Part shown: positions 23,280-32,618 of the stretch, one piece after another
Numbering within the stretch: the stretch's first letter is position 1
Layout of the letters: each line of letters begins with the position of its first letter
From: Nitrospira sp.
Lineage (GTDB): Bacteria; Nitrospirota; Nitrospiria; Nitrospirales; Nitrospiraceae
Reading direction: 5' to 3'
DNA length: 64,000 nt
Assembly (NCBI GenBank): GCA_030123565.1
Contig: CP126122.1
Location: forward strand, 4,168,800-4,232,799
The notes under the pieces: generated by a model
The model's input: only the letters and a program-made list of their open reading frames with translations
The model's database searches: none
What the model was told of the DNA's origin: nothing
Program-made: the position numbers and the translations under genes

Positions 23280-23732
23280 ATGAAGGTTAGTCTCAGGGCC
23301 ACCTATGGAATTATCGCTGCCGTCGACCTTGCGTTGCACGACGCCGAACAGCCGGTTTGTGCCAAGTCGATTGCCAAACGCCAGGCGATTCCGGCCAGGT
23401 TTCTCGAACAGGTTCTCCACGCCATGAAAATGGCCGGCGTGGTAACCAGCCAACGTGGAGCCCAGGGTGGCTATGTGTTGAGTCGGAAGCCATCGGAGGT
23501 CTCCGTCGCCGATATTCTTCATGCGCTGGAGGGGCCTCTCATGGAAACCAACGGTGCTGCCGGCTCAAGAAGCGCCGCCACCCGCGGCGCGAAGCGAGAA
23601 GTGTTGCTGGCGCACATTTGGGATCGCGTGAAACAGGCCGAACTGAGCGTCCTGTCGGAAGTGACGGTCGAAGAGTTGGCCAAGCGCCAACGTGCGCTCG
23701 AAGCACAACACAGCTTGATGTATCACATTTGA
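23280..23732 (+). CDS. Rrf2-family regulator of sulfur assimilation (CymR-like)
   Basis: A 150-residue winged-helix regulator: MKVSLRATYGIIAAVDLALH, the recognition helix IPARFLEQVLHAMKMAGVV and the wing RGAQGGYVLSRKPSEVSVAD. The three Cys that bind an Fe-S cluster in IscR are absent, as in CymR, which senses cysteine through a partner enzyme. It is followed 45 bases later by sulfite reductase and the rest of the sulfate-assimilation genes, which it probably controls. Confidence 0.85.
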   Translation: MKVSLRATYGIIAAVDLALHDAEQPVCAKSIAKRQAIPARFLEQVLHAMKMAGVVTSQRGAQGGYVLSRKPSEVSVADILHALEGPLMETNGAAGSRSAATRGAKREVLLAHIWDRVKQAELSVLSEVTVEELAKRQRALEAQHSLMYHI

Positions 23733-23777: not shown

Positions 23778-26261
23778 ATGAGTCCTCACACTGTTGATCT
23801 CCGTCCGGCGATCCGGACAGAGCCCATTCCAGCCCATATAGTTGAAGAAATCGAAACATTCGAAGCGGAAGCCCAGCGGGTCCTGGTGGGCGATCTCTCG
23901 ACCGACATCTTCAAGCCATTCCGCTTGCAATACGGCATTTACGGCCAGCGCCAACCGGGAGTGCAAATGTTTCGGATCAAGATCCCGTTCGGCGGGCTCA
24001 CGGCGAACCAGTTGCGGCAAGTGGCCGAACTGGCCGACCAATATGCCACCGGAGTGGGCCATGTCACGACGCGCCAGGACATTCAATTGCATTTTGTCGA
24101 ACTCAAACATGTCCCGGAGATGATGCGCCTGCTGGCCTCCGTGGGGCTGACCACGCGCGAGGCCTGTGCCAATACCGTGCGAAACGTGACGGCCTGTCAC
24201 TTGGCAGGCGTCTGTCAAGGGGAGGTCTTCGATGTCACGCCCTACGCGAAGACGGTGGCCTATCACCTCTTGCGTAACCCGCTCAACCAGAGTCTTCCCC
24301 GGAAGTTCAAGATCGCCCTCTCGGGGTGCCGCCAGGATTGCGCCCTTACACCCATCCACGACATCGGCCTGCTCGCCGCGAAACGGGCGGACGGCGCCAT
24401 CGGCTTCCGCATGGTCGTGGGCGGCGGTTTGGGATCGACTCCACGCATCGCTCAGGTGCTGAGGGAATTCACGCCGATGGACGAACTGCTTCCCACGATC
24501 GAAGCCGTGATCAAGGTGTTCGACACGTTGGGGAACCGCAAGAATCGCAACAAGGCCCGCATGAAGTTCGTCATCGAGAAGCTCGGGTTCGACGAATTCA
24601 AACGGCGCTGGGAAGCGGCCTATACGGCGATGGGGTACGCGGTGCCGACGCATGAGCCCATCAAGCTGCTGGACCATGCCGATGAGCCTCCGTTGATCAT
24701 GCCGACGAAAGCGCCGACCCTCTCCAATGGCAACGGGAACGGCAACGGCGCAGCGTCCCTCAACGGCCAGGCCTCGGCGTTCCAGGCCTGGAGGCGGACC
24801 AATGTGGTTCCGCAGCGGCAGGCAGGCTTCGTCACGGCGGCGATCAAGTTGCCGATGGGTGACCTCACGGGCGACCAGATGTGGACGGTTGCCGATCTTG
24901 CCGAACGTTATTCCAACGGCAACATCCGCACGACGATCAACCAAAACATGGTCATCCGCTGGATTCCCGAAGGGCGCCTGGAAGATTTCTATGACGAACT
25001 CGTGGCGCATAGCCTGGGTGATCCCGGTGCGGAACTCGTGGAAGACATCATTGCCTGCCCCGGCACCGATACCTGCGGCTTGGGAATCACCTCATCGAAG
25101 GGGATGGCCAGGGCTTTGGCCGAGGTGTTCCCCGCCGGCCGGGTCCCGGAGGATCTCCGGGATGTGAGCGTCAAGATCAGCGGCTGCCATAACTCCTGTG
25201 CGCAACACCATATCGCCACGATCGGGTTGCACGGAGTCGGCAAGCGACTCGGCGACCATACGGCGCCGCATTACGAATTGCATCTCGGTGGACATGTGAG
25301 CGGGCAGCCGAAGATCGGTCAGATGACGGTCAAACTGCCTGCCAAGAACGTCCCGGCGGCGATTCGCCACCTGGTGGATGTGTATCGCCGCGATCGACGA
25401 GAAGGTGAAACGCTCCTGGCGTTCATCACGCGGGCCGGTAAGGCCGTCCTCAAGGATGAACTCATCCCCTACACGATCGTGCCGCCCTATGATCAGGACC
25501 CGACCTATTACTATGACTGGGAAGGCGAGGCGGAATTCGTGCTGGAGGATTTGGGCCCCGGTGAATGCGCCGGCGGTGCGTTGGAGATGATCGACGACCG
25601 TATGCTGGAAGCCGATCAGGAGCTGTATCAAGCTAAGCTTCTCGTCGAGAAGCATCAGTATGCCTTGTCGGTCAATAAATCCTATCGCGCCGTACTGGCG
25701 GCGGCCAAGGCCTTGCTGGTGACGGAAGGACTCGATCCGGCGACCGATGCCGAAACGTTCCAAGAGTTCGATCTGCGTCTGGCGAGCAAAGGCATCGTGC
25801 CGGCCACGTATAAAAATCTCGGTACGCAAGTCGGCGATCTCGGTTCCAAGGATGCGACGGTCGATGCGGCGACGGAGAAGATGGCCTTTGCCAAACGGTT
25901 CCTCGATGTCTGCCGCGCGGCCACCGAGCAAATGGGCAAGGACCTCAAATTGGCACAGGTAAAGGAAGAGGCAGTGCCTGCTGCTGCCCCCAAGATTGCG
26001 TCGCCCGCTCCCGTCGCTGCGGCCAAGGCTCTCGTCTACGACCTGCGCGGTGTGGCCTGTCCGATGAATTACGTGAAGACCAAATTGAAGCTGGAGATGA
26101 TGGACAACGGCGAGCAACTCGAGGTCTGGCTCGATGCCGGAGAGCCCATTCGGAATGTACCGATGAGTCTGCGCAACGACGGCCACAAGATCCTTGACGA
26201 GGGGCCGTTGGAGCCGGAGGCGAAACATTTCAAAATTGTGGTGGAGAAGGTCGAGGGGTAG
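23778..26261 (+). CDS. Sulfite reductase fused to HEPN-like and TusA domains
   Basis: An 827-residue protein. Residues 1-570 are a siroheme/4Fe-4S nitrite-sulfite reductase with two homologous halves. The functional-type cluster motif is in the second half: Cys427-x5-Cys433 and Cys470-x3-Cys474. Unusually, the first half has the same spacing: Cys140-x5-Cys146 and Cys184-x3-Cys188. Residues about 610-730 are helical and HEPN-like (LVEKHQYALSVNKSYRAVLA). The last 75 residues are a TusA-type sulfur carrier (DLRGVACPMNYVKTKLKLE, active Cys). Context (APS reductase, CysDN) says sulfite to sulfide. ATG 23778 has GAGG eight bases upstream. Confidence 0.9.
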   Translation: MSPHTVDLRPAIRTEPIPAHIVEEIETFEAEAQRVLVGDLSTDIFKPFRLQYGIYGQRQPGVQMFRIKIPFGGLTANQLRQVAELADQYATGVGHVTTRQDIQLHFVELKHVPEMMRLLASVGLTTREACANTVRNVTACHLAGVCQGEVFDVTPYAKTVAYHLLRNPLNQSLPRKFKIALSGCRQDCALTPIHDIGLLAAKRADGAIGFRMVVGGGLGSTPRIAQVLREFTPMDELLPTIEAVIKVFDTLGNRKNRNKARMKFVIEKLGFDEFKRRWEAAYTAMGYAVPTHEPIKLLDHADEPPLIMPTKAPTLSNGNGNGNGAASLNGQASAFQAWRRTNVVPQRQAGFVTAAIKLPMGDLTGDQMWTVADLAERYSNGNIRTTINQNMVIRWIPEGRLEDFYDELVAHSLGDPGAELVEDIIACPGTDTCGLGITSSKGMARALAEVFPAGRVPEDLRDVSVKISGCHNSCAQHHIATIGLHGVGKRLGDHTAPHYELHLGGHVSGQPKIGQMTVKLPAKNVPAAIRHLVDVYRRDRREGETLLAFITRAGKAVLKDELIPYTIVPPYDQDPTYYYDWEGEAEFVLEDLGPGECAGGALEMIDDRMLEADQELYQAKLLVEKHQYALSVNKSYRAVLAAAKALLVTEGLDPATDAETFQEFDLRLASKGIVPATYKNLGTQVGDLGSKDATVDAATEKMAFAKRFLDVCRAATEQMGKDLKLAQVKEEAVPAAAPKIASPAPVAAAKALVYDLRGVACPMNYVKTKLKLEMMDNGEQLEVWLDAGEPIRNVPMSLRNDGHKILDEGPLEPEAKHFKIVVEKVEG

Positions 26262-26272
26262 GGGAGTGAGCG

Positions 26273-27001
26273 GTGGAACTGAACAATAACATCGCGTCCG
26301 CTGCCCGTCCGACGGATGAAGCACTCAAGGCGTTGAGTGCTTCGTTTGAATCCAAGCAGCCCTGGGACCTGCTGGAATATGCGCTCAAGGCCTATAAGGG
26401 ACGGATTGTGCTCGCATGCAGCTTCGGAGCGGAAGATGTGGCGTTGGTGGACATGGTGCATCGCATCGATCCCGAGGCGCCCCTGTTTTATCTAGATACC
26501 GATTTCCTGTTTTCCGAAACGATCGACGTGCGTGATCGCATCGTTGCGCGGTATGGCTTGAAGCCCGCGCAAGTGATTCAGATGAAATCATTATTGACGC
26601 CTGATCAACAAGCTGCCCAATACGGAGCGGCGCTTTGGGCGAGCAATCCGGATCAGTGCTGTCAACTCAGGAAGATCGAACCTCTGACCCGTATCCTTTC
26701 GAACTATTCTGCCTGGATTACCGGCATCAGGAGGGACCAGGCGCCGACGCGTGCCAACGCCGGCCTGGTCGAGTGGGACAAAAAGTTCAACTTGGTCAAG
26801 GTGAATCCGTTGGCACGCTGGAGCAATGAGCAGGTCTGGATGTACCTTCAACTCCATGAGGTGCCCTATAACACCTTACATGACCGCAACTATCCCAGCA
26901 TCGGCTGTATACACTGCACGGCGCCTGTCCTTCCGGGAGACGATCCGCGCTCCGGTCGGTGGAAGAATTTCGGCAAGACCGAGTGCGGCCTGCACAAATA
27001 A
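26273..27001 (+). CDS. cysH: Assimilatory adenylylsulfate (APS) reductase
   Basis: A 242-residue thiol-dependent reductase making sulfite. The PP-loop nucleotide site includes VLACSFGAEDVALV; substrate segments FYLDTDFLF and ITGIRRDQAPTR follow. Cys129-Cys130 (DQCCQLRK) and Cys212-x2-Cys215 (GCIHC) are the 4Fe-4S ligands that distinguish APS reductases from PAPS reductases. The C-terminal ECGLH carries the catalytic Cys. It starts at GTG 26273, 11 bases after the sulfite reductase stop. Confidence 0.93.
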   Translation: MELNNNIASAARPTDEALKALSASFESKQPWDLLEYALKAYKGRIVLACSFGAEDVALVDMVHRIDPEAPLFYLDTDFLFSETIDVRDRIVARYGLKPAQVIQMKSLLTPDQQAAQYGAALWASNPDQCCQLRKIEPLTRILSNYSAWITGIRRDQAPTRANAGLVEWDKKFNLVKVNPLARWSNEQVWMYLQLHEVPYNTLHDRNYPSIGCIHCTAPVLPGDDPRSGRWKNFGKTECGLHK

Positions 27002-27041: not shown

Positions 27042-28109
27042 ATGCAACACCTGCTCGCGAAAGTCGCCAAGGGTCAAAAAACGTCCAAGGACCTCACCTG
27101 GGAAGAAGCCAAGCAGGCCATGCGCCTGATGATCGAAGGGACCGCCACGCAGGCTCAAGTCGGCGCGTTCCTCATTGCCATGCGATTCAAGTCGGAATCG
27201 GTCACGGAATTGGCCGCCTTCACTGCTGCCGCGCGGCAATACGTCGCGCCGATTCCGGTCCGTGCCGGGCTTGGGGTGGTCGATGTGCCCACCTATGCGG
27301 GGAAGCGGGAGACGTTTCATGCGCTCGTCCCGGCGGCGATCATCGCGGCGGCCGCCGGAGCGGTGGTGCTGCTGCATGGGGTAGACGGCCCGCCGGATCG
27401 ACGCGGGGTTTCTTCGGTCCTCAAGCCGTTGGGCATTCCCGTTGATCTGACTGCCAAGTCGGTCGGGGCTGAATTGGAACGGAAGGGACTCGCCTATTTG
27501 GACCTGGCGCTCTATCACCCGCCGGTCAGCCGGTTTCTCGAAATGCGACAGGAATTGGGCGTGCGAAATTTCTTTCACCCGGTAGCGAGGATGTTGAACC
27601 CCGCACGCGCCGCCTCGCAGGTGATCGGCCTCTCGCATCCGCCTTACTTCGAGAAGACGATCGAGGCCTTGCGCATGTTGAGTTGTCCGCGGGCTCTGGT
27701 GATCCGCGGTGTCGAAGGCGACCCCGAACTGTCGATCGGCAATGTGACGCGGCTGCTGGAACTCAAGGACGAAAGAATCATCCCCTTCACGTTCCAGCCG
27801 AAAGACGCGGGCCTGACGATGGCGACCTTCCGTGAGATGGCCGGGTTTCCCGCCGAACAGCGGGAACGGGAGGCAGACTTGATCAAGCGGCTGTTGGCGA
27901 ACGGGGTTCAAGGAGGGCAACGGGATTGGGTGCTGCTCAATGCCGCCATGTTGCTCTATGCGGCAGGGAAGGGGCCTTCAATCACCGGGAGTCTCGCAAC
28001 CGCTCGACGTACGCTCGAGTCCGGCCAGGCCCATGCCAAACTCGCCGAACTGGCAGCGGTCGCAGGCTCGGGAGCCGGAGCAACGCAGAGGGTCGGCATT
28101 CCCGCGTAA
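27042..28109 (+). CDS. Anthranilate phosphoribosyltransferase-like protein (TrpD2)
   Basis: A 355-residue protein of the glycosyltransferase family 3 / TrpD fold: N-terminal helical domain (KDLTWEEAKQAMRLMIEGTA, then QVGAFLIAMRFKSE) and a C-terminal phosphoribosyl-binding domain. The PRPP motif of true TrpD (GTGGD-type) is replaced by VPTYAGKRETFH, so anthranilate transfer is unlikely. Its position inside the sulfate-assimilation operon, between cysH and cysD, is notable. The substrate is unknown. Confidence 0.8.
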   Translation: MQHLLAKVAKGQKTSKDLTWEEAKQAMRLMIEGTATQAQVGAFLIAMRFKSESVTELAAFTAAARQYVAPIPVRAGLGVVDVPTYAGKRETFHALVPAAIIAAAAGAVVLLHGVDGPPDRRGVSSVLKPLGIPVDLTAKSVGAELERKGLAYLDLALYHPPVSRFLEMRQELGVRNFFHPVARMLNPARAASQVIGLSHPPYFEKTIEALRMLSCPRALVIRGVEGDPELSIGNVTRLLELKDERIIPFTFQPKDAGLTMATFREMAGFPAEQREREADLIKRLLANGVQGGQRDWVLLNAAMLLYAAGKGPSITGSLATARRTLESGQAHAKLAELAAVAGSGAGATQRVGIPA

Positions 28110-28124
28110 CCAAAAGAGTGAACG

Positions 28125-28922
28125 ATGAAACATTTGCGTCAGCTCGAAGACCAAAGCGTCTATATCCTTCGCGAAGCCTACAAGCATTTCAATCACCTCG
28201 CCATGCTCTGGTCGATGGGGAAAGATTCGACGGTGCTGCTATGGCTGGCCCGCAAGGCCTTCTTCGGCCATGTGCCCTTTCCCTTGCTGCACGTGGATAC
28301 GAGCTACAAGATTCCGGCAATGATCGAATACCGTGACCGGATTGCCCGGGAGTGGCGCTTGAATCTGGTTGTGGGGCAAAACAAGGAAGCTCTGGCTGCC
28401 GGCATGAACCATACGCTCGGGCGGGATGTCTGTTGCACGGCCTTGAAGACGACCGCCATGAAGAATCTGGTCGAGGAGAAGGGCTATACCGGCATCATCC
28501 TCGGCGTCCGAGCGGATGAAGACAGCACCAGGGCGAAGGAGCGGTACTTCTCACCTCGCGATAAACACGGTGATTGGGATTTTCGCGATCAGCCGCCTGA
28601 GTTGTGGGACCAGTTCAAGACGACCTTTCCGCCCGGCACGCACATCCGGATCCATCCGCTCCTGGATTGGACCGAGATCAACATTTGGGAGTACATCAAG
28701 CACGAGAACATTCCCTTCATGGATCTGTACCTCGACAGGGGCGACGGGACGCGGTATCGCAGCCTGGGTTGCGCGCCCTGCACCACTCCCATCAAGTCCA
28801 CGGCGAAGACGGTGGATGAGATCATCGAGGAACTCCGTGGAACCAATATCGCGGAACGGGCCGGCCGGGCGCAGGACGCGGGGCGGGGCATGGAGATGTT
28901 GCGCAAGAAGGGCTATATGTGA
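28125..28922 (+). CDS. cysD: Sulfate adenylyltransferase subunit 2
   Basis: A 265-residue ATP-sulfurylase catalytic subunit, shorter than the E. coli protein (302) but with all family segments: [20 protein letters not shown] (PP-loop), [35 protein letters not shown], and the C-terminal [14 protein letters not shown]. It makes APS from sulfate and ATP together with CysN. Confidence 0.95.
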
Positions 28923-28985: not shown

Positions 28986-30833
28986 ATGACACAGCAGGAC
29001 CAAAACAAACCGCAAGAGAGCCTCAACATCGTCATCGTAGGCCATGTGGACCACGGAAAGTCCACGCTGGTCGGGAGACTCTACGCCGATACCGGGTCTC
29101 TGCCCGAGGGCAAGCTGGAGAAGGTGCAGGCCATTTGCCGCCAGCAGGGCAAGGAGTTCGAGTACGCCTTCCTGTTCGATGCATTTTTGGAGGAGCAGGA
29201 GCAGGGCATCACGATCGACACGGCGCGCACGTTTTTCATCTGGAACGGGCGGCAATACATCATCATCGATGCGCCGGGCCACAAGGAGTTTCTGAAGAAC
29301 ATGATCTCCGGCGCCGCCCGGGCGGAGGCCGCCCTGTTGTTGATCGATGCGCTGGAAGGGGTGCGCGAACAATCGAAGAAGCACGGGTATTTGCTGTCGC
29401 TGTTGGGCGTGACGCAGTTTGCCGTCGTCGTGAACAAGATGGACCTGGTCGGCTATCGCCAGGACGTGTTCGAGGGGATTGAAAAGGAGTATCGGGAGTT
29501 TCTCGGCCAATTCAGAGCGGTCCCGCAACAAATGATCCCGGTCAGCGCCAAATTGGGCGATAACATCGCCATGCGCAGCGGCAATATGGGCTGGTATCGA
29601 GGCCCCACGGTGCTGGAGACACTGTCTCTGTTCAAGAAAGAGCAGGCCAGGGCGGAGCAGCCGCTCCGCTTTCCGTTGCAGGATGTCTACAAGTTCGATG
29701 CGCGGCGGATTTTGGTCGGCCGCATTACGGCCGGGCGCCTGAAAGTCGGGGACCAGTTGGTCTTCTCTCCCTCAAACAAAACGGCGGTGGTGCAATCAAT
29801 CGAAGGGTTCAATGTCGATCCGCCGTCGAGCGAAGCGCAGGCCGGACAATCGGTCGGGATCACACTCGACGAACAGATCTTTGTGGAACGTGGGGAGATT
29901 GCATCGCATCGTGATTCGATCCCGCTCGTCTCGACGGCTGTGAGGGTCAACCTGTTCTGGTTGGGAAGGCGGCCGCTCGAGAAGGGGCGGAAATACTTTT
30001 TGCGGCTCGCCACGCGGGAAGTGGCCTGTGAGGTGGCCGCCATCCATCGCATCATCGATACGGCGGACCTCGCCCAGCTGCAGGAAAGTCAGTCGGTAGC
30101 GAAAAACCAGGTGGCCGAATTGACGTTGCGGGTCAAGACTCCCTTGGCGTTCGACCTGTCGTCGTCTTTCGAATCGACGGGGCGGTTCGTCCTCGTCGAT
30201 GAATACGACATCGCCGGGGGCGGGATCATTACCGAGCTGGTGCATGATGAGCAGGAAGGGTTGCGCGAGGAGGCGCGGCAGCGGGAATATGCCTGGCTCA
30301 CGGGGGACGTGCGGGCGGAGGACCGGGCCGCGCAATATGGGCATCGGGCCGCCATCGTCCTGTTCACCGGTTCGGCTCAGACAGGGAAGACGTTTCTTGC
30401 TCGCCGTGTGGAGGCCTTGCTCGTCGCCGATAGCAGACATGCGTATCTGTTGGAAGGTGAGAACCTGCTGCAGGGGTTGGACGCCGACCTCTCCGCCGCC
30501 GATCCGTCCTTTGGGGCGGAGCGGGTGCGCCGTTATGGCGAGGTTGCGCGACTGTTGATCGATGCGGGGCTCATCGTGGTCTCGACCAGCAAGACCTTCG
30601 GGATCAATTATCAGCGAATGGCTGAGATGATTCGGACGTTGGTCCAGCCCGCTCCTGTCATTGCGGTGCACATGAGCAAGGCAGGTGAAGAGGCCCCACC
30701 GAATACCGATCTCCACTTCGCCGGGCCGCAGGATTTCGACGGAGCCGCCCGTCAGATTCTTGAAGCGTTGAAGCGACGGGGCGTACTCGCTCAAGCGAGC
30801 GGGGCCAAGTCAACCATTCAGTATTCGATCTAG
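28986..30833 (+). CDS. cysN: Sulfate adenylyltransferase subunit 1 with degenerate APS-kinase domain
   Basis: A 615-residue protein. Residues 10-430 are the CysN GTPase: GHVDHGKST (19-27), [15 protein letters not shown], and EF-Tu-like domains 2 and 3. Residues from about 455 are homologous to APS kinase, but the P-loop is GSAQTGKT (462-469) rather than the usual GLSGSGKS, and the substrate segment is [10 protein letters not shown] instead of LDGDNVRHGL. Catalytic competence of the kinase is therefore doubtful. The operon's APS reductase would not need PAPS. It begins 63 bases after cysD. Confidence 0.92.
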
Positions 30834-30908: not shown

Positions 30909-31835
30909 ATGACTATGGCCGCCGATAAGGATCTCAAGTCCATCCTCACGAAACTTCAGTATTCCGACGACGCGAAGGTCGTGCAGCAGATCACCGCCCA
31001 GATGAAGCAGGTGCAGGCCAGAATGGCCGGCATCAAGCAGAAGCTGGTGGTGATGAGCGGCAAAGGTGGAGTCGGCAAGAGCATGACCACCGTCAACCTT
31101 GCGTTGGCGTTCGCGCGACAGGGCGCGAAAGTCGGTCTGCTCGATGTGGATTTGAACGGTCCCTGTGTTCCAAGGATGATGGGCCTGCACGGCCGGTCGT
31201 TGACCATGACCCCGGAGGGGGCACAACCTCCCGTCGGTCCGCTCGGCATCAAGGTGGCGTCGATGGATTTTTTCCTCGACGACGCGTCGCCGGTGCGTTG
31301 GAAGGGACCGATGGACCTGAGCCCTGTGTGGCTGGGTCTCATGGAAATGAACGTGATTCGAGAGTTCCTGGCCGATGTCGTCTGGGGCGAGTTGGATTAT
31401 CTCCTCGCCGACCTGCCTCCCGGCGCGGCAGCCGACAAGCCGCCGGTCATCGCGGGATTCATTCCCGACCTCGCCGGTGCGATCGTGGTCACGACGCCGT
31501 CGGAAGTCGCGTCCGATGTGGTGCAAAAGTCCGTGACCTATGCGCGGGACACGGGCATCCGGGTGTTGGGTATCGTCGAAAATATGAGCGAGTACCGTTG
31601 CCCTTCCTGTGGGGCTGAGAATGAACTCTTTGAAGGGAACACCGAGGCGATGTGCGAGGTGCTGGATCTCCCGTTGCTCGGCCGCATCCCGTTCGATCGC
31701 AAGTTTGCCAAGACGTTCGACAAGGGGGAGCCGCTCCTCGATCCTGACTATCCGACGACTCAAAAATATCATGACATCGTCGGGCGGATTCAAGCGTTGC
31801 TGGATTATAAAAAAGTCCTGGCGGAAAAGCTGTAA
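30909..31835 (+). CDS. Mrp/ApbC-family ATPase, Fe-S cluster carrier
   Basis: A 308-residue P-loop ATPase: VVMSGKGGVGKSMTTVNLAL (deviant Walker A with two Lys), GLLDVDLNGPCVPRMMGL, YLLADLPPGA. The CxxC pair expected for cluster binding is in YRCPSCGAEN. Members carry 4Fe-4S clusters to apoproteins; nearby Fe-S enzymes (sulfite reductase, APS reductase) are possible clients, as an inference. It has its own spacing of 75 bases after cysN. Confidence 0.9.
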   Translation: MTMAADKDLKSILTKLQYSDDAKVVQQITAQMKQVQARMAGIKQKLVVMSGKGGVGKSMTTVNLALAFARQGAKVGLLDVDLNGPCVPRMMGLHGRSLTMTPEGAQPPVGPLGIKVASMDFFLDDASPVRWKGPMDLSPVWLGLMEMNVIREFLADVVWGELDYLLADLPPGAAADKPPVIAGFIPDLAGAIVVTTPSEVASDVVQKSVTYARDTGIRVLGIVENMSEYRCPSCGAENELFEGNTEAMCEVLDLPLLGRIPFDRKFAKTFDKGEPLLDPDYPTTQKYHDIVGRIQALLDYKKVLAEKL

Positions 31836-31862: not shown

Positions 31863-32618
31863 ATGAAGTTCGTTTGCCTGAACTGCGAGACCTACATGAC
31901 GTTTCAAAAGGTCGAAAAACCCGGTGAGGGCTCACTCGGTGTCTTCTTCGGCTGTCCCTCCTGCAATGCGAAGTTCTCCATGGTCACCAATCCGGGCGAG
32001 ACGCAAATGGTCGCATCGCTGGGCGTGAAACTGGGCGGCCGCACGGAGGAGGCGGAGCCATTCGAGATGACCCGCGGGACCCTCAAGGAAGAAGCGCAGG
32101 CCGGCGCAGGCCAGATGGCCGCCTATCTCAACGAGAAGATCCAAGGCGGTCAACCGGTGACGGCTTCGGCGAAACCGGCTGCGGCTCCTGCCGGCGGAGA
32201 GAAGACGTCCGGCGGCTGTCCCTTCTCCGCGATGGTGGCGGAGATGGGCTTGACCTCCGGCGGCAAGCAGCAGAACGGGAGCGGCACGAGCGAATTCACC
32301 TGGACGCCGGACGCGAAGGAAAAGTTGGAACGTCTGCCGTCGTTCGTCAAACCGATGGTTCAGAGCAGTGTCGAGGCCTATGCGCGCAAGCAGGGGTATA
32401 AAAATATTACGCTGCAAGTCATGGACGATTCCAAGAACGATTCACCCAACGGCATCGCCTGGACCAAGGATGCCGAGCAGCGCATGGACAATATTCCCGA
32501 CTTCATTCGTCCGATGGCCCGCCGGGAGATCGAACGCATTGCGAAGGAGCGTGGATTGACCGAGATCACGGCCCAGGTAATGGATGAGGCCAAAGAGAAA
32601 TTCATGAAATTCATGTAG
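31863..32618 (+). CDS. Zinc-ribbon protein with two PCP_red repeats
   Basis: A 251-residue protein. The N-terminus has two CxxC pairs (VCLNCETYM; GCPSCNAKF), a rubredoxin-like zinc ribbon. After a low-complexity linker come two copies of the PCP_red domain known from the C-terminus of protochlorophyllide reductase ChlB/BchB: FTWTPDAKEKLERLPSFVKP... and IAWTKDAEQRMDNIPDFIRP..., each ending in VMD(D/E). No photosynthesis gene is present. It starts 27 bases after the Mrp gene and is probably in its operon. It is a paralogue of the protein at 46768. Confidence 0.8.
   Translation: MKFVCLNCETYMTFQKVEKPGEGSLGVFFGCPSCNAKFSMVTNPGETQMVASLGVKLGGRTEEAEPFEMTRGTLKEEAQAGAGQMAAYLNEKIQGGQPVTASAKPAAAPAGGEKTSGGCPFSAMVAEMGLTSGGKQQNGSGTSEFTWTPDAKEKLERLPSFVKPMVQSSVEAYARKQGYKNITLQVMDDSKNDSPNGIAWTKDAEQRMDNIPDFIRPMARREIERIAKERGLTEITAQVMDEAKEKFMKFM

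Follow-up and report, generated by a model that had tools for sequence, protein, structure and literature searches.

A Nitrospira sulfite reductase with cluster motifs in both halves, a conserved cysteine motif and fused HEPN-like and TusA-like domains

What is a sulfite reductase with two complete cluster motifs and a sulfur-carrier domain at its C-terminus built to do? The question is raised by an 827-residue protein encoded in a window of 64,000 nucleotides from a Nitrospira sp. genome (GCA_030123565.1, contig CP126122.1, positions 4,168,800 to 4,232,799 of the forward strand; coordinates below are those of the window). The open reading frame is intact from its ATG at 23778 to its stop at 26261, and a Pfam scan divides the protein into two NIR_SIR_ferr and two NIR_SIR domains, a HEPN domain (residues 608-656) and a TusA domain (residues 754-824) (Table 1). 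Both the Pfam matches and the fold show two NIR_SIR_ferr plus NIR_SIR halves fused in one chain, as in the assimilatory sulfite reductases (SIRs). In these fused enzymes one of two ancestral siroheme-[4Fe-4S] sites is held to have been lost by way of duplication and fusion, and loss of the cluster motif from the N half is given as typical of the class (PMC10229431), which we take as a common trait and not as a requirement. In the Nitrospira protein, however, the N-half residues C140, C146, C184 and C188 are present and conserved, and because the motif is kept we regard the protein as a variant and not as a typical member. The best explanation overall, which we hold to be about evenly poised between right and wrong, is an assimilatory SIR that has a second cluster in its N half and that would relay sulfur from C597, in the linker behind the reductase, to TusA.

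Table 1. Features of the SIR fusion gene and its operon; positions refer to the window.
Feature	Position	Strand	Remarks
Rrf2-family regulator	23280..23732	+	upstream of operon; rrf2_super above cut-off, CymR model below
SIR fusion CDS	23778..26261	+	827 aa; siroheme-[4Fe-4S] sulfite reductase, GECAGG Cys motif, HEPN-like, TusA-like
N-terminal half	23940..24614	+	NIR_SIR_ferr 55-121, NIR_SIR 131-279; gives R66, R99, R135, K176, K178 to active site
Cys130	24165..24167	+	near-invariant; alignments and residue arithmetic
N-half cluster motif	24195..24341	+	C140 24195-24197, C146 24213-24215, C184 24327-24329, C188 24339-24341
C-terminal half	24783..25445	+	aa 336-556; Pfam and half-versus-half profile alignment
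C-half catalytic siroheme-[4Fe-4S] motif	25056..25199	+	C427, C433, C470, C474
GPGECAGG motif	25554..25577	+	aa 593-600; Cys597 25566-25568
HEPN-like helical domain	25572..25937	+	aa 599-720; Pfam PF05168, fold match
TusA-like domain	26037..26249	+	aa 754-824; CPMN at C761 (26058-26060), not CPxP
cysH, (P)APS reductase	26273..27001	+	11 bp past SIR stop
TrpD-like glycosyltransferase family 3 protein	27042..28109	+	within cys operon
cysD, sulfate adenylyltransferase small subunit	28125..28922	+	
cysN/C, sulfate adenylyltransferase large subunit / APS kinase	28986..30833	+	

Whether the same fusion recurs in other genomes had been named as a check by the sequence-only reading of this DNA, and it does recur. 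About 47 full-length copies occur among 148 Nitrospirota genomes, which rules out a fusion by chance or a frameshift artefact, and the full-length architecture of two halves, HEPN and TusA is conserved in Nitrospirota and in Nitrospinota. The homologue of Ca. N. defluvii is 92% identical to the 827-residue protein; a scan of viral contigs found no viral relatives. The Nitrospira genome (4.62 Mb) encodes one other two-half protein, a NirA-type paralogue. None of the NCBIfam equivalog models reached its cut-off with the 827-residue protein: the best scores came from NirA-type models, the NirA and NiR equivalogs scored 286.6 bits against a cut-off of 523 and 256.7 against 594, and the DsrA and DsrB models fell far below theirs. 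In a quick tree, weakly supported, the TusA-bearing lineages lie near the NirA-side root.

Which reaction does the enzyme catalyze? In an alignment with E. coli CysI (SiRHP; strain MG1655), residues R83, R117, R153, K215 and K217, the sulfite-site residues of the SiRHP structures, all fall on identical residues of the Nitrospira protein (R66, R99, R135, K176 and K178), and the four cluster cysteines C434, C440, C479 and C483 fall on C427, C433, C470 and C474. These cysteines are kept in 205 of 205 family members, and each of the five basic residues is found in 199 members with the column covered, one further member having Ser at K178. R66, R135, K176 and K178 are the sulfite-binding Arg/Lys residues expected of an assimilatory SIR. 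In the C half the mirror positions, those that a site on the N-half cluster would use, are A355, N388, E422, D462 and S464, and Arg/Lys is not conserved at any of them. The alignments thus predict one catalytically complete site, composed of the N-half Arg/Lys residues and the C-half cluster; since the mirrored site lacks the sulfite-binding residues, it would not be a second catalytic site.

Residues 23-559 have the fold of M. tuberculosis NirA/SirA (1zj8; Z 39.8, rmsd 2.4 over 478), with which the protein shares the C-half cluster and the absence of a flavoprotein fusion. Unlike the Nitrospira protein, 1zj8 lacks the N-half cluster cysteines in the alignment and stops close to where the reductase part stops, so that tail motif, HEPN and TusA are all missing. 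In E. coli CysI these three are likewise missing, and N, L, P and D occupy the four N-half Cys positions. The sequence-only reading overlooked two cysteines, Cys130 and, above all, C597. By residue arithmetic Tyr55 (23940-23942) and Cys130 would correspond to the M. tuberculosis NirA active-site residues Tyr69 and Cys161, a pair joined near the siroheme by a covalent Cys-Tyr bond; a basal TusA-bearing subgroup has Gly in place of Cys130.

Judged by sequence, the nearest proteins of solved structure are nitrite reductases and NirA, and the 827-residue enzyme might accordingly be supposed to be mainly an assimilatory nitrite reductase. However, Lys at the position of K217 and K178 is of the sulfite-reductase type, and the NirA paralogue has Asn there; the tobacco mutant N226K (3vlx) probes the corresponding position. 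The gene moreover lies in a cys operon, and a separate NirA-like gene lies elsewhere in the genome, so that we give a primary role in nitrite reduction hardly any credence. Fold, active site and operon together place the protein in the class of assimilatory siroheme sulfite reductases. As predicted from sequence, it is the sulfite reductase of the organism's sulfate assimilation, with one standard active site; its electron donor is probably ferredoxin.

The gene order Rrf2-SIR-cysH-trpD2-cysD-cysNC was found in 14 of 14 Nitrospirales loci tested, whereas five deeper Nitrospirota loci have the order Rrf2-aprA-aprB-SIR-sat. In Thermus, the SIR gene lies beside siroheme-synthesis genes and the genes for PAPS reductase and sulfate adenylyltransferase. 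From these varying neighbors we conclude that the SIR follows whichever enzyme makes sulfite. Among the deeper Nitrospirota, the SIR gene of L041, L042, L043, L044, L048 and L050 sits between aprAB and sat, with the Rrf2 gene first in five of the six, and dissimilatory-type APS reductase genes therefore adjoin an assimilatory-type SIR. In all of the Nitrospirales cys operons that we tested, the trpD-like gene separates cysH from cysD. Immediately 3' of cysNC in the window come two further genes (30909-31835 and 31863-32618), for an iron-sulfur carrier ATPase of the Mrp/NUBPL type and for a protein in which the PCP_red domain occurs twice. PCP_red is the family of the protochlorophyllide reductase 57 kD subunit, here in a genus not known for phototrophy. 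In some Nitrospirota (L053, L062, L052) a related two-half reductase forms the C-terminal part of frames of about 1070-1090 residues, the N-terminal part of which is different.

What, then, are the N-half cysteines for? The sequence-only reading had pointed to Cys-x5-Cys and Cys-x3-Cys at similar distances in both halves, and closer analysis bears this out. C140-x5-C146 and C184-x3-C188 in the N half match C427-x5-C433 and C470-x3-C474 in the C half, the offset from the first to the second motif being 38 residues and 37 residues, respectively, and a half-versus-half profile alignment (99.9% probability, E 7e-31) places all four Cys pairs in register. In a search of solved structures, the N-half cysteines came to lie opposite the C-half cluster cysteines of plant NiR, and both DsrB and Fsr superpose on the N half. 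The reductase domain of F420-dependent Fsr (7np8, 7npa) does so with a Z of 21.9 and has the same CX5C-Xn-CX3C pattern, but the Fsr subunit has a single reductase half, to which F420 oxidase and ferredoxin domains are added.

Of the full-length Nitrospirota and Nitrospinota members sampled, only L116, which has CSCH at these positions and lacks the GEC linker as well, is without the complete N-half set; the motif is thus no chance occurrence. In the wider family (97 non-redundant members), four, three, two, one and none of the cysteines are found in 44, 2, 37, 3 and 11 members, respectively. Independent shuffling of the columns, a control that ignores kinship, leads one to expect 40 members with three cysteines and 18 members with all four; the observed values were not attained in a single one of 5000 shuffles. 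Phylogenetic pair tests of co-loss gave a p of about 0.03 for C140/C184 only, most comparisons offering too few independent pairs. On the tree, the pattern requires nine changes or more. Three of the four cysteines are found in NirA outgroups; at the second position the NirA-type paralogue of the same genome (L002/L004) has Asn, and the other NirA-type outgroups have Asp or Ser. The earlier statement that in relatives only the C half keeps its cysteines is therefore too simple. Bacterial NirA enzymes may still have an N-half cluster bound by three cysteines. We further note that residues 147-270 of one short-form model (mc41887eb1196), its N-half cluster region, superpose on the iron-sulfur domain of IspG (4s38; Z 8.0).

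This distribution fits a set of ligands that is either kept whole or decays, largely as a unit. Since complete sets are scattered over the tree and the NirA outgroups keep three of four, ancestral retention followed by losses is the simpler reading, while change counts alone cannot separate gain from loss. The set is dispensable, because many family members live without it. On the strength of these sequence patterns we lean toward the view that the two-site ancestor has left a second [4Fe-4S] cluster, bound by the four N-half cysteines, and that this second site is probably non-catalytic. Because the mirrored sulfite ligands are absent, the cluster would, in the manner of the structural site of DsrA, have a part in structure or in the transfer or entry of electrons, possibly with a non-catalytic siroheme such as DsrA has. 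A more radical proposal is that both sites are complete and catalytic, the protein being a living two-site ancestor of the assimilatory SIRs. The intact motifs in both halves and their register would suit it, as would the published scheme in which a duplicated and fused enzyme lost one of its sites (PMC10229431), but ligands for sulfite are absent from the second site and the residues in their stead (A355, E422, D462 and S464) are unconserved, and we consider it very improbable. Homology and a near all-or-nothing retention thus back the original observation of two cluster motifs, though not as two catalytic sites.

The cysteine that we consider central to any sulfur relay, C597, lies between reductase and HEPN. 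A GxGEC motif follows the reductase in nearly every family member. Within the linker, C597 is conserved at 98% and G595 and E596 at 99-100%, while the other positions are mostly below 60%, the exceptions being D580, F587, G593 and A598. The short-form relatives annotated as 'nitrite/sulfite reductase' belong to the same family (approximately 36-49% identity) and have the same catalytic set and the GxGEC motif; they differ in that most have partly lost the N-half cysteines and in where they stop. In 79 short relatives and in Thermus the protein ends exactly two residues past the motif Cys, with the tail GxGECA[A/V/S], typically GECAA or GECAV. Such short forms come from seven phyla: Thermus, Thaumarchaeota, Methylomirabilota, Chloroflexota, Acidobacteriota, Omnitrophota and Elusimicrobiota. 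In Bacteroidota and some Acidobacteriota, SIR and GEC are followed by a HEPN-like part without TusA. In the locus L201, from the Omnitrophota search, an apparent cysteine synthase follows the reductase in frame in place of the GEC tail, a fusion of producer and user.

AlphaFold pLDDT is below 50 at residues 591-600 of the 827-residue protein and about 78 for the tail of one short form. We propose from the model that the segment around Cys597 is flexible and Cys597 mobile. Invariant cysteines in mobile terminal segments are known from DsrC, which takes sulfur from DsrAB, and from the ECGLH tail of CysH. The Cys597 tail may follow this DsrC/CysH-like pattern in a functional sense, not one of homology; alternatively, Cys597 might act as a ligand or in redox switching. 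DsrC models gave no match in the Pfam and NCBIfam scans, so the likeness to DsrC is confined to the idea of a C-terminal Cys arm. By proposed analogy, the arm would be a sulfur acceptor as in DsrAB-DsrC, a system in which each of two halves likewise has a full cluster motif, with an active site in one and a structural site in the other. The Nitrospira SIR, by contrast, is a single fused chain in an assimilatory operon with its arm in cis, and instead of the separate alpha and beta subunits and inserted ferredoxin domain of DsrAB it has a Pfam profile without a ferredoxin domain.

The domains beyond the motif are recognizable in both sequence and fold. The helical segment had been called HEPN-like at the outset, correctly, since its fold matches HEPN structures: PF05168 scores 25.1 bits against a cut-off of 22, and VIA-align of the model places residues 599-720 on the HEPN proteins AF0298 (2hsb; Z 16.5, rmsd 2.8 over 119), ST0689 (1wol; Z 14.4) and sacsin (Z 14.3). 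Such a domain had been thought unusual in an assimilatory enzyme, but it is not unique, as the relatives from Bacteroidota and Acidobacteriota carry HEPN too. The RNase motif R-x4-6-H is absent from the 827-residue protein and from 84 of 112 long forms; a role as an RNase was ruled out on this ground, and the domain may instead be a spacer for docking or dimerization. The TusA domain scores 56.6 bits with PF01206 (cut-off 28.6), and residues 748-826 align with YeeD and TusA at Z 11.8-12.8 (E. coli TusA, 3lvj, Z 11.8). The canonical CPxP is replaced by CPxN in 99 of the 112 long forms, the rest showing mostly gaps. We therefore call the domain TusA-like, as CPxP is missing but Cys-Pro is kept, and the same substitution may mean that it is inactive as a sulfur carrier. 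That TusA receives sulfur, as first suggested from the sequence, is plausible; without C597 the suggestion would be mechanistically incomplete.

How might sulfur leave the active site? In 2026, four assimilatory reductases were reported to make zero-valent sulfur (S0) as their direct product, with no carrier known, and the cysteine synthases tested to prefer persulfide (PMC13188885). The claim of S0 comes from that single paper, stands against the accepted six-electron sulfide product and needs independent confirmation, but it makes a relay through C597 and C761 more plausible. We tentatively suggest, by analogy and at somewhat less than even chances, that Cys597 takes zero-valent (persulfide) sulfur from the siroheme site and passes it to Cys761 of TusA. 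In such a relay, sulfur at the S0 or persulfide level would move from the siroheme site to the mobile Cys597, as it does from DsrAB to DsrC, then to Cys761 of the fused domain, and from there to a ThiS-type carrier and a cysteine synthase. The genome has such genes, E1-like proteins without rhodanese included: near 1.23 Mb, genes for ThiS, a rhodanese-free ThiF, JAB and PALP (of the cysteine synthase family) form a cluster, and the genome has two further TusA genes.

Against this relay stands an ordinary six-electron SIR that releases free sulfide, with N-half cysteines that bind a structural [4Fe-4S] cluster or nothing, a tail Cys that serves as redox regulator or in packing, and a TusA domain tethered for another sulfur-transfer task. 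In its favor, the catalytic residues agree with those of E. coli CysI and the fold with that of M. tuberculosis NirA; short forms without HEPN or TusA occur, and TusA lacks CPxP. It fits poorly, however, with a Cys tail that is the best-conserved part of the linker and the exact C-terminus in seven phyla, and with HEPN and TusA placed directly behind the GxGEC motif. We judge it a serious contender that falls a little short of an even chance. Since short forms lack TusA, that domain is not needed for the basic role of the tail, and the C597 tail might in all members hand sulfur straight to ThiS/MoaD-type carriers, TusA merely reinforcing the transfer in some. Short-form loci with JAMM, ThiS-like and cysteine synthase genes (L141) or ThiS-like and cysteine synthase genes (L134) beside SIR speak for direct donation, as does the ThiS, ThiF, JAB and PALP cluster of the Nitrospira genome. 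The association is not universal, though, many loci being without such genes in the flanks covered, and we regard direct donation in all members as improbable.

Comparable arrangements are known. In the survey of Iyer et al. (2006), ThiS-JAB-E1 operons with a sulfite reductase always contain SirA/TusA, and some actinobacteria have sulfite reductases that continue at the C-terminus into ThiS (PMC1779556). These SIR-ThiS proteins likewise have a sulfur-carrier domain at the SIR C-terminus, but theirs is a ThiS beta-grasp carrier where the Nitrospira SIR has HEPN-TusA (PMC1779556); by analogy, the fusion of SIR to HEPN and TusA may solve the same problem in parallel. Taking the relay to its conclusion, the protein would be a one-polypeptide assimilatory counterpart of DsrAB-DsrC, with an ancestral second cluster, transfer of S0 to Cys597, a TusA relay to carrier-dependent cysteine synthesis and free H2S not the main product. 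We think this fullest version rather unlikely as a whole. The proteins of the family are already known, as public annotation names relatives 'nitrite/sulfite reductase'; neither the twin motif nor the GEC tail nor the HEPN-TusA fusion appears to be described in the searchable literature, in which we found no SIR with HEPN and TusA and no SIR fused to a TusA domain, although subscription reviews of TusA may mention the fusion.

Finally, this large SIR family preserves intermediate stages of site loss, and the proposed loss scheme (PMC10229431) thereby becomes testable by direct biochemistry. The GxGEC tail is a sequence marker that splits the family from the generic 'nitrite/sulfite reductase' label. 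The family also offers a conserved candidate acceptor Cys and, in nitrite-oxidizing lineages, a fused sulfur carrier as well. If the one-polypeptide counterpart of DsrAB-DsrC is real, the principle would, through the GxGEC tail, also hold for the short-form enzymes of at least seven phyla, archaea included.
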